Assembly: GCF_003315485.1 (NCBI RefSeq)
Contig: NZ_QNSE01000002.1
Location: 248,001-312,000, forward strand
From: Marinomonas rhizomae
GTDB taxonomy: Bacteria > Pseudomonadota > Gammaproteobacteria > Pseudomonadales > Marinomonadaceae
Reading direction: 5' to 3'
DNA: 64,000 nt
How positions within the stretch are numbered: position 1 is the stretch's first letter; the number at the start of each line of letters is the position of its first letter. Under the pieces are notes generated by a model. It saw nothing but the letters and a program-made list of their open reading frames with translations, searched no databases and was not told where the DNA came from. A program made the position numbers and the translations under genes. Below, one piece after another: positions 4,691-7,372 of the stretch.

Positions 4691-5026
4691 TTAGCTGGAA
4701 AAGAAGGCCTCAAGCTCATTGAGTGAGGTTTGATGAATGGCGGGCAGGTCATCGATGATGGCCTGCATACCCAGTTCACTTTGTTGAGCGGATGCTTCTT
4801 CTATCAGCTGACATTGTTCGGCAAACACCTGCATTGCCATGTTTAAACTGGCGGATTTTAGTGAATGGCTAATTTGCCTTAATTCTTGATAATCTCTTAT
4901 ATTCCATGCTCGTATGAGCAGTGTCATTTTTTCATGGCTATCATCTACAAACTCTAGACGTATTTGATTAATCGTATCTTTTTCTAGTAACTGAATAAGA
5001 GAATCTAGCTGCGCGTAATTAATCAT
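4691..5026 (-). CDS. Histidine phosphotransfer (Hpt) domain protein
   Basis: Small cytoplasmic phosphorelay protein of 111 residues consisting of one Hpt domain. The phosphoacceptor motif is HSLKSASLNM with the histidine at 54, matching the HxLKGxS pattern of Hpt proteins. Its start overlaps the stop of the upstream kinase gene by four bases (ATGA), so the two are translationally coupled. The kinase itself lacks its own acceptor histidine and its receiver domain lacks the acceptor aspartate, which makes this protein the only intact phosphorylation site in the operon. Partner response regulator unknown. Confidence 0.85.
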   Translation of the reverse strand: MINYAQLDSLIQLLEKDTINQIRLEFVDDSHEKMTLLIRAWNIRDYQELRQISHSLKSASLNMAMQVFAEQCQLIEEASAQQSELGMQAIIDDLPAIHQTSLNELEAFFSS

Positions 5027-6843
5027 TTTTCTGAGCCTTTAGGTGTTTTGTGTGACAGAAATAGACCTGCAATAAGAGGCTCTAATTGTGTTTGTGTGAG
5101 TGGGAAAACTAATGGCGTGACTGGGTATTCTGGATGGTTAATCGCCTGAGGGTGATAACCAAAAACAGGACACGATTTTGTACGCCATTGCATAAGAGCA
5201 TCATTACCATCACGCTCGAAGCGTGGTGTATTGCCCAGAATAACAAGGTCATAGTCATTATGTTCTTGCAGACTACCATCTTTCGATATAATCGCACTGA
5301 TGTTAAATGCTGCCAGTTGCAAACTAATAATTTTAGCTAGGTGTATGTCTGTTTCAATAACCAATGCTTGTGTTTGGTATGGGCATTGAAAGCTTGTTGG
5401 CTTTGCTGCTGGGTAATTGTTTGGTACATAGAAGGGTATATCCACCCAAAATTCACAGCCTTTTTGTGGCGCACAAGAAAAATGCAGTTCACCTTGCATC
5501 AGATAAACCAGCTTGTGGCACAGTGCCAAACTCAAGCCGACTTTGCTAGGCAGCGGCCCTTCTTTTTGCATTGGTAGGGATGGGTTAAACCTTAAGTTTT
5601 GTTGTAATTCATTCGGCATACCTAGCCCTGTATCTCTAAGAGCAATTTGCAGCACTCTGATTTCTTTTGTGTCTTTAGCAAGTGGCATTTGAGGCGCGTT
5701 TAGTGCCGAAGGTCTAATTTGTAAACTGATGCTACCGGATGGTGTGTGTGTAATGGCATTTTGCAGTAGTGCAACGATAATTTCTTTGGTTCTGGCGAAA
5801 TCTAGGCTGATATATTTTGGTAAAAGAGGGTCAACATAAAGGATACTCTGCACGTTTTTGCGTGACATCTGGGGCTCAAAGATCGCGAAATACTCTTCGA
5901 TACTTTTTTGTAAATGCTCAATAGTTGGATTAAGTGTTAGTTTTTTTGCATTGATCAGTGATAAGTCGGAGAGCATTTCGATGGTTTGCAGTAATTGCAG
6001 GCCTGACTCTTCAATATGCTTTGAGAGTGCCTGCGTCTCGTTTCTCGATACTGGCCCATTTAGGGTCTTAGCCGTTCCTAGAATAGCATTAAGGGGGGAG
6101 CGTATTTCTTGATTCACGAAAGACAGTAAGTTGGCTTTGTCTTCGTTCACCGTTTGCATCCCTAATTGAAGGCTTTTGTTACGTCTAATAACGCTTTTAA
6201 GCTCAGTTAACCCTTTTACAGTAAAGAAGCATAAACACAATAGGCAGGCCAACAAGGTTATTGAGAGTAGTTGTATCTCATCTAAATTTTTCTGCAAGGT
6301 TTGATGCTGCTTGCTGATAAACTCATTACTGCCTTTATTTACTAGGGTGACAAATTCGTTTATTTGCTCTTCGATACGCCGAATGCGCTCAATTAAGTTG
6401 GGTAGGTAAGAGGCATCACCGCTTTCTATTTTAGATAAATTGAAACTGAGCAACTCCAATTCACCGTTAATGATATTCAGCAGTCTGGTGGTGCGACCAC
6501 TTTCAAAGGTACGAATGAGAGAGCCCACGTCACCCTGCCTAAGCAAGTCTACTCGACTCATTAATAGGTCATATTGAAAGAAAGCACTACCATTTAGAGG
6601 ATAGTCGTTATCGTCTAATTCTATTAAATAATTGAGAAAACGATATGACTGTATTTGTAATTGTAGGGTGTTCCATAAAGAGCTTTCAAATACACGCCGA
6701 CTATTATTTTTTGAGCTATCACTGGTGTAAGTAATAATGCCAAAGACAGCGATGGTGATGGCAATAATAAAAGCAACGCAAGCATAGAGTACCCAAAGCT
6801 TGAATTTGGACAGCCAAATCTTTTCCTTAAACAAACTTTCCAT
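5023..6843 (-). CDS. Membrane hybrid histidine kinase homologue lacking phosphoacceptor residues
   Basis: 606-residue sensor protein with membrane segments at about 16-38 and 192-209, a ~150-residue periplasmic region, a HisKA-like region, a HATPase domain and a C-terminal receiver-like domain. In the HisKA box, where the family has SHEIRTPLNAI, the sequence is NQEIRSPLNAI: the acceptor histidine is a glutamine (residue 245, codon CAA). The ATPase keeps the N-box asparagine (about 362) and the DTGLGMP G1 box. In the receiver, the usual 'DLVLMD' is DLVILG, with glycine (about 537) at the aspartate position. The start at 6843 is chosen because GGAG precedes it by 7 bases; the longer frame would overlap the upstream gene. 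It is followed by the Hpt gene (ATGA overlap). Probably a pseudokinase or regulator of the relay. Confidence 0.8.
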   Translation of the reverse strand: MESLFKEKIWLSKFKLWVLYACVAFIIAITIAVFGIITYTSDSSKNNSRRVFESSLWNTLQLQIQSYRFLNYLIELDDNDYPLNGSAFFQYDLLMSRVDLLRQGDVGSLIRTFESGRTTRLLNIINGELELLSFNLSKIESGDASYLPNLIERIRRIEEQINEFVTLVNKGSNEFISKQHQTLQKNLDEIQLLSITLLACLLCLCFFTVKGLTELKSVIRRNKSLQLGMQTVNEDKANLLSFVNQEIRSPLNAILGTAKTLNGPVSRNETQALSKHIEESGLQLLQTIEMLSDLSLINAKKLTLNPTIEHLQKSIEEYFAIFEPQMSRKNVQSILYVDPLLPKYISLDFARTKEIIVALLQNAITHTPSGSISLQIRPSALNAPQMPLAKDTKEIRVLQIALRDTGLGMPNELQQNLRFNPSLPMQKEGPLPSKVGLSLALCHKLVYLMQGELHFSCAPQKGCEFWVDIPFYVPNNYPAAKPTSFQCPYQTQALVIETDIHLAKIISLQLAAFNISAIISKDGSLQEHNDYDLVILGNTPRFERDGNDALMQWRTKSCPVFGYHPQAINHPEYPVTPLVFPLTQTQLEPLIAGLFLSHKTPKGSEK

Positions 6844-6853
6844 TTTTACTCCA

Positions 6854-7372
6854 TTAGGGTAACACTTTGATACGGTCAACTTGCCAAATAGAACGACCAT
6901 AAAACATTTCGGATTTAAGCTCTTTGCGCTCATCGAATGGATAGATCACCATAATAGGCCCGAGGTTTCTAACACTCATTGGCTTGCCATCAAGGTGAGT
7001 GGCAAAAATGGCCCCATTTTCAGTAAAGTCACTCAATGGAATCTCGGTCATGTACTCATTGAGCGCAGTGATCTGCAAAAGTGTGCCAGAGCTGCCCACT
7101 CGTTGTAATAGGTCGATGGCAGAAAAGCCTTGGTAAGTGTGGCGGCCTTTTGTCCAAGGATTATGAGTAATAACAGTATACTGCGGCAAGCGGTTTAGCA
7201 TGGTTAAATCAAACTTAGACTCCGGTATTGAACCTGTGGTATTGATTGCCCCTGAGACGCTTAATAAAACGTTTCCTTGTGCCGTTTCCGCAGCATAGGA
7301 AGAAATAGAAATAACGCCTAAAAACAGTACAACAAGAAGGTTTAGCTGGGGATGAGAAGAACATAAGCGCAT
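6854..7372 (-). CDS. Periplasmic molybdopterin-oxidoreductase-fold protein, probably non-catalytic
   Basis: 172-residue protein with a signal peptide (cleavage after about SSYAA, residue 28) and a fold resembling the sulfite-oxidase-type molybdopterin-binding domain, as judged from 'HTYQGFSAIDLLQRVG' and the C-terminal 'GPIMVIYPFDER...SIWQVDRIKV' pattern. Enzymes of that superfamily bind molybdenum through a cysteine; the only cysteine here is residue 4, inside the signal peptide, so catalysis is unlikely. It starts the operon with the degenerate kinase (10 bases apart) and the Hpt protein, which suggests a periplasmic input partner for the kinase. This role is inference. Confidence 0.65.
   Translation of the reverse strand: MRLCSSHPQLNLLVVLFLGVISISSYAAETAQGNVLLSVSGAINTTGSIPESKFDLTMLNRLPQYTVITHNPWTKGRHTYQGFSAIDLLQRVGSSGTLLQITALNEYMTEIPLSDFTENGAIFATHLDGKPMSVRNLGPIMVIYPFDERKELKSEMFYGRSIWQVDRIKVLP

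Follow-up and report, generated by a model that had tools for sequence, protein, structure and literature searches.

Organization of the operon

A three-gene operon lies on the reverse strand of the window, that is, the whole 64,000-nucleotide stretch of Marinomonas rhizomae DNA that was analyzed (Table 1). The sequence-only reading had described the kinase and the Hpt protein with correct letters and coordinates, but it overlooked the PruR-type gene upstream of them. The kinase stop codon and the Hpt start codon overlap by 4 nt (ATGA, 5026-5023). A convergent GAF gene neighbours the operon, and neither hsbR (receiver-SpoIIE) nor hsbA was present beside it. Shuffled sequence gave promoter- and terminator-like sites in numbers similar to those around the operon.

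Orthologues were surveyed in 48 genomes, all from Marinomonas and including the source genome. As observed, the kinase was present at the syntenic locus in all 48, pruR in 45 and the Hpt gene in 38. OppF or CysZ on one side and PhoU on the other, with or without the GAF gene, flanked the locus in 47 genomes; for the remaining one (G016), the fetched stretch covers the CysZ side only.

Table 1. Features of the operon, with positions counted from the first letter of the window
Feature	Positions	Strand	Remarks
Gene 1, PruR-type gene	6854-7372	-	172 aa; 10 nt upstream of the kinase
Gene 2, DTB-type pseudo-histidine kinase	5023-6843	-	606 aa; periplasmic domain, DHp, CA, pseudo-receiver
WX7Q motif (W57...Q65), counterpart of WX7E	6649-6675	-	W57 and Q65 invariant in 48/48
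Gln245 codon, phosphoacceptor position	6109-6111	-	
CA (HATPase_c), residues 301-475	5419-5943	-	N362 and D404 kept, G2 box eroded
Pseudo-receiver, residues 488-600	5044-5382	-	No Asp at 537, no Lys at 580
Gene 3, free-standing Hpt protein	4691-5026	-	111 aa

Gene 1 encodes a PruR-type protein

A phmmer search of the PDB with the 172-aa protein, which is SUOX-like in sequence, retrieved entries deposited as 'Pterin Binding Protein', namely 7kos (1.4e-30), 7rkb (5e-28) and 7kp2 (2.1e-23), and the protein also matched Pfam Oxidored_molyb (4.4e-6). Its N-terminus is hydrophobic. None of the 45 PruR orthologues contains a Cys past the first 35 aligned residues. Like PruR, the protein has no cysteine able to hold molybdenum. 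It is of the PruR type and is predicted to bind pterin in the periplasm.

According to the available text of a 2026 review (PMC13259868), PruR binds tetrahydropterin in the periplasm and acts on the periplasmic domain of a regulator. Regulators of two kinds are described, the cyclase/phosphodiesterase DcpA and sensor kinases (DTB, from DcpA-TorS-BaeS). The vast majority of PruR-linked regulators, although not all, carry a periplasmic WX7E motif, and the sensor kinase given there as a worked example possesses the catalytic His. The presence of the pruR gene thus points to both the likely input (pterin) and the likely ancestry (PruR-DTB) of the kinase described here.

The kinase core lacks its phosphoacceptor His

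The kinase matched Pfam HisKA (9.3e-10) and HATPase_c (1.3e-11), and its core found TorS as the best NCBIfam match (8.4e-33), far below that model's cut-off. Its AlphaFold model had a pLDDT of 82.6 and a pTM of 0.58. The H-box segment reads FVNQEIRSPLNAI and carries Q245, so the replacement of the HisKA His by Gln, already pointed out by the sequence-only reading, is correct in letters and coordinates. Across the 48 orthologues, position 245 is occupied by Gln in 34, His in five, Asn in four, Ala in two, Ser in two and Lys in one. The Gln codon is CAA in 30 genomes and CAG in four, indicating that the residue has outlived silent changes. With a HisKA/HATPase architecture that lacks the phosphorylated His, the protein is a pseudo-histidine kinase, a term used for an RcsD domain in the available text of PMC3762810.

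The earlier reading had called for an orthologue alignment, in which intact orthologues would have left this copy as a lone mutant. Instead, the His was absent from 43 of the 48 orthologues and the Asp from the receiver column of all of them, which rules out a private mutation or a sequencing error. This pattern across the orthologues is more than chance. For comparison, the available text of PMC12632262 gives rates of 0.9% for HisKA domains missing the His and 2.0% for receiver domains missing the Asp.

The ATP-binding boxes were claimed to be kept. This held for N362 and for the G1 box (D404-x-G406-x-G408) and failed for the G2 box, which is canonically GxGLGL and is eroded here to KVGLSL; its first Gly is absent in 48/48. 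N362 is kept in 41 of the 48 orthologues and 36 of the 43 His-less rows, and D404 in 44 and 42 of them, respectively. All seven of the 48 genomes without the N-box Asn keep the Hpt gene, including six of the eight members of the G024 group. Retention of the Hpt beside the most degenerate kinases fits a reading in which the output in those genomes is the Hpt rather than the ATPase.

The 43 His-less rows retain the Glu beside the missing His in 37 cases. At the Thr position of the HExxT motif of transmitter phosphatase (as given in the available text of PMC5992135), which is residue 249 here, the same rows carry Pro (18), Ser (16), Ala (4), Phe (3), Arg (1) or Tyr (1) and never Thr, making a transmitter phosphatase unlikely. 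The most degenerate orthologue found was that of G016 (L066 4270-6039), in which Lys stands for His and the G1 box is gone while the Hpt is intact.

The C-terminal domain is a pseudo-receiver

The second substitution noted earlier, Gly537 for the receiver Asp (YDLVILGNT), is also correct in its letters. Since Pfam Response_reg gave no match in the kinase at E ≤ 1, the assignment of this domain to the receivers rests on structure models. The domain modelled alone reached a pLDDT of 90.1, and receivers or response regulators made up 49 of the 50 Foldseek matches listed, the best at 3.3e-6; its predicted fold is thus that of a receiver. The active site contains no Asp at 537, no Asp at 498 and no Lys at 580 in any of the 48 orthologues, and the domain is a pseudo-receiver (PsR), defined by the lack of one or more of five active-site residues. 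An Asp stands one column past position 537 in ten of the 48 (L049, L054-L058, L061, L062, L065, L156), where the active-site Lys is missing; this shifted Asp may serve as a phosphosite in those ten.

The periplasmic domain relates the kinase to PruR-linked sensor kinases

The source genome encodes a His-intact paralogue, P0004 (798 aa, contig C11), which forms a PruR-kinase pair and carries WX7E. The DcpA-type periplasmic domain was scored via this PruR-linked paralogue and not via DcpA itself. In hhalign (10 + 14 rows), the two periplasmic regions aligned at 95.7% (E 9.3e-9, 190 columns), with Trp on Trp and Q65 opposite the Glu of WX7E. On the basis of this homology to a His-intact, PruR-linked kinase, the kinase is a pseudokinase variant of PruR-DTB. 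It resembles PruR-DTB, as described in the available text of PMC13259868, in the pruR-type gene directly upstream, the homologous periplasmic domain and the TorS-like core. It differs in that the phosphoacceptor His and the receiver Asp are gone, the motif is WX7Q and not WX7E, and the third gene encodes a separate Hpt. The WX7Q motif was kept even in the three genomes without a pruR gene at the locus.

PruR-linked kinases from outside Marinomonas had an H-box in 7/7 cases read by eye (L131, L132, L135, L139, L170, L171, L172), and four of these (L131, L132, L135, L139) carry WX7D. An order-wide search of 293 genomes with the kinase profile (E ≤ 1e-55) found matches in 13 Marinomonas and nine other genomes. 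Eight of the nine non-Marinomonas loci were read, all with an H-box, and the matches spanning the periplasmic part (G256, G118, G197, G313) adjoin a PruR-type gene by eye. When the class was searched with the PruR profile (E ≤ 1e-20), three of 273 other genomes were matched, and the kinases there, read by eye, all have an H-box. In the genomes sampled here, the pseudokinase-Hpt pair turned up in Marinomonas alone. In a search of the open-access literature, neither a PruR-linked kinase without its His nor the Marinomonas locus came up as the subject of a paper.

The Hpt protein retains its phosphorylation motif

The product of gene 3 matched Pfam Hpt (7.9e-9), and its H54 is intact (ISHSLKSAS), as had been read from the letters. 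An H-x-x-K-S motif, in the form of HSLKS, HALKS or HSIKS, is present in 38/38 Hpt rows, and H54, K57, S58 and N62 are invariant in the 22 aligned rows of the 38. The best PDB match was 7c1i, deposited as 'Histidine kinase' (8e-6). The source genome gave nine Pfam Hpt matches, and that of the operon is the only short frame (115 aa) and the only free-standing one; another lies in a 370-aa frame on contig C4 that ends in an HD-type domain by eye.

A search for the Hpt family at E ≤ 1e-12 found no match in G012, G017, G026 and G030 (G046 was outside the sample), and the single match in G007 lies inside a 1474-aa frame. Outside Marinomonas, free-standing Hpt loci were drawn from matches in many genomes of other genera in the order, and 12/12 fetched loci adjoin a receiver-SpoIIE frame by eye, the arrangement of HptB operons. 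The presence of the Hpt switches at least five times on the species tree and six times on the kinase tree.

Trait combinations, history and selection

Combining the two traits, 37 of the 48 genomes are His-less with an Hpt, six are His-less without one (G007, G012, G017, G026, G030, G046), one has both His and Hpt (G035), and four have His without Hpt. The picture of a relay shell with a single acceptor site thus holds for 37 of the 48; it does not hold for the six without His and Hpt or for the five that retain His. Those six nevertheless keep PruR and the pseudokinase, indicating that a role independent of the Hpt exists.

For the kinase tree, the H-box columns were excluded and four outgroup rows that carry the His served as root. 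G035 and G003/G023/G042 were basal, one branch (support 98) led to the other 44, and the His of G033 was nested within the Gln group. Read from this tree, the simplest history would be a single early loss of the His followed by its regain in G033 only; the long branches G033+G041 and G035+outgroup are flagged as possibly false groupings. A species tree built by a quick method from PhoU, PstB, PstA and GAF (47 genomes) placed G042 beside G033 instead, and transfer or rate effects may therefore have shaped the position of these rows. The His/no-His trait changes twice on either tree, and the order of the losses is tentative. The absence of the Hpt was associated with the presence of His by Fisher's test (p 0.005) and was non-significant in independent pairs on the tree. 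At the loci themselves, G003 (L064), G023 (L065) and G042 (L063) keep His, have Ala at D404 and lack both PruR and Hpt, and G033 (L166/L035) has His (CAT) within the Gln clade, no Hpt gene and a long branch.

Selection was estimated by pairwise NG86 dN/dS in three clades plus eight pairs, several of the pairs being synonymously saturated and giving no ratio. All measurable domains of the kinase, Hpt and PruR gave values of 0.01-0.23, showing that every domain with a measurable ratio is under purifying selection; a pseudogene is ruled out by the same values. The pseudo-receiver was the loosest kinase domain in six of eight comparable sets, and the periplasmic and CA parts were tighter than the Hpt in 7/7 sets with all three measurable. 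A mirror-tree analysis between domains (37 genomes) gave partial correlations of 0.06-0.75 with no interpretable pattern; the strongest partner of the Hpt was the periplasmic part (0.68), and the kinase core was not singled out.

Candidate phosphate donors in the source genome

Ten other kinases of the source genome were matched by this kinase, and all have a receiver match; as the list holds matches to one query, further kinases are possible. An Hpt match shares the frame with six of the ten; the other four, with frames of 1094 aa (contig C10), 605 and 910 aa (both C8) and 798 aa (C11), have none. P0004 is among these four Hpt-less hybrid kinases, and downstream of it lies a receiver protein ending in an HD-GYP domain by eye. 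The relatives of P0004 at 30 loci (L068-L097; C-termini by eye) comprised nine long forms (909-934 aa) with their own intact Hpt and 21 short forms without one, several of the short loci having in-frame stops within the match. A free Hpt was present in 21/21 short-form genomes. G017 has one further P0004-like match (its C-terminus outside those read) and no free Hpt, and six genomes have a free Hpt without a P0004-type match. The presence of the Hpt was associated with that of P0004 by Fisher's test (p 0.010; 47 genomes, phylogeny ignored). In independent tree pairs the median p was 1, with too few pairs to reach 0.05; being non-significant on the tree, the association is a lead and not a result. 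The P0004-type genes of G013 and G027 (L087, L081) have in-frame stops and partial query coverage and may be broken.

Comparison with known systems

Four further kinds of system were compared with the operon, each as described in the text available of the papers cited. In RcsD, the Hpt relays phosphate from RcsC to RcsB, and the other domains receive the signal (PMC7418988). Like RcsD (PMC7418988, PMC3762810), the operon encodes a membrane pseudo-histidine kinase and an Hpt, which in RcsD carries phosphate fed by another hybrid kinase. Unlike in RcsD, the Hpt is a separate chain and the input would be PruR, not IgaA; the counterparts of RcsC and RcsB are postulated. The RcsD model NF007907 matched residues 233-539 (4.8e-17), below its cut-off and more weakly than the models of several ordinary hybrid kinases did. 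DivL (PMC4211667) and RetS (PMC5992135) likewise retain a kinase core that has lost autophosphorylation, and each controls another kinase; RetS differs in retaining the H-box with a degenerate ATPase, and both differ from the operon, in which an Hpt is co-encoded. In the VIA-align list for the DHp/CA model, RetS scored Z 20.2 and DivL Z 18.1; since ordinary kinases fill that list, these rows are no proof of membership.

The best structural match of the model was ShkA, over a predicted DHp-CA-pseudo-receiver arrangement at residues 247-597 (Z 22.2, rmsd 5.1, 313 aligned). ShkA is a hybrid kinase whose pseudo-receiver binds c-di-GMP, and it differs in autophosphorylating its HisKA domain and in having a second, true receiver (PMC12632262). 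HptB of Pseudomonas is, like gene 3, a free-standing single-domain Hpt and is served by unlinked hybrid kinases; its neighbours are hsbR/hsbA, unlike the pruR and pseudokinase found here (PMC5085249).

Proposed mechanism and alternatives

We tentatively favor, by analogy, a mechanism in which a pterin-linked receptor pseudokinase gates a dedicated Hpt fed by an unlinked hybrid kinase, an RcsD-like arrangement in two chains that may operate here, although our confidence falls short of even. RcsD was chosen as the model because its Hpt relays from RcsC to RcsB while its other domains sense. Pterin-loaded PruR would contact the periplasmic domain of the kinase. Transmitted across the dimer, the change would reach the pseudokinase core, and this core would bind and gate the Hpt. 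An unlinked hybrid kinase without its own Hpt would supply phosphate from its receiver to this Hpt, which would hand it to, or drain it from, a response regulator. This proposal is favored by the absence of His in 43/48 and of the receiver Asp in 48/48 together with an intact Hpt motif in 38/38, and by the purifying dN/dS, the 4-nt overlap, the sole free-standing Hpt and the four Hpt-less hybrid kinases. The identity of PruR, the periplasmic homology to a His-intact paralogue and the H-box in 7/7 kinases outside the genus also point to it. Against it stand the six genomes without His and Hpt, in which the pseudokinase would have to rely on contact with another kinase alone, the shifted Asp in 10/48, and the P0004 link and mirror-tree results, which lend no support.

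Owing to these six genomes without any phosphosite in the operon, the strongest alternative is that the pseudokinase controls another kinase directly: an allosteric pseudokinase would bind another sensor kinase by mixed dimer formation or inhibition, like RetS-GacS and DivL-CckA, with the Hpt as an accessory or a separate hub. All six retain PruR and the pseudokinase, and in G007/G026, the only such pair tested, the two measurable domains gave dN/dS of 0.07 and 0.05; the structural alignments with RetS and DivL and the kept Glu are also consistent with this explanation. However, His-intact kinases score about equally in the fold comparison, the gene overlap and the presence of the Hpt in 37 of the 43 His-less genomes are left unexplained, and a RetS-type phosphatase version is unlikely because the HExxT Thr is absent in 43/43. 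We consider such allosteric control a possibility on the unlikely side. Direct phosphorylation of the Hpt from ATP, CheA-like and in trans, by the CA domain on its His-less dimer domain would agree with the slow evolution of that domain and with N362 and D404 kept in 36 and 42 of the 43 His-less rows. Still, the N-box Asn is lost in seven of 48 genomes that all have the Hpt, the first Gly of the G2 box is lost throughout, and G007, G012 and G026, which lack the Hpt, have ATP boxes of the same quality. No HisKA-type CA domain is known to phosphorylate an Hpt directly. We regard this route as very unlikely.

The Hpt might also be a general hub for several Hpt-less hybrid kinases, as HptB is in Pseudomonas, with its co-expression with the pseudokinase being incidental. 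Such a hub would fit the match to 7c1i, the four hybrid kinases without an Hpt and the lack of any other free-standing Hpt among the matches in this genome, whereas the 12/12 free-standing loci of other genera adjoin a receiver-SpoIIE frame, unlike the Marinomonas operon, and the repeated switching of Hpt presence on both trees (at least five and six times) is odd for a hub; we judge it improbable. That the operon is a functionless, decaying relic of a former phosphorelay, as the absence of His, Asp, Hpt and PruR in differing lineages might suggest, is scarcely credible and already largely refuted, given the low dN/dS in all measurable domains and the syntenic presence in 48/48.

Selection on a genus-wide receptor that has lost both phosphosites, next to an Hpt, hints at a pseudokinase as a further route for pterin signalling. 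Moreover, one genus here offers a natural series (genomes with and without His, with an apparently regained His, without Hpt or without PruR) in which the role of a pseudo-histidine kinase is testable by strain comparison.

A more specific arrangement, which we think unlikely, would cross-wire two pterin receptors: P0004, encoded elsewhere in the genome, with His and in this lineage without its own Hpt, would combine with the pseudokinase and its free Hpt into a single full relay whose end point is the receiver-HD-GYP protein beside P0004. If so, phosphate would pass only with a signal at both PruR-linked receptors. In G003 (L067 1630-5615), an insertion sequence, presumably of the IS30 type, seems to have split a second PruR-linked hybrid kinase: transposase-like frames separate its kinase part from its receiver part.
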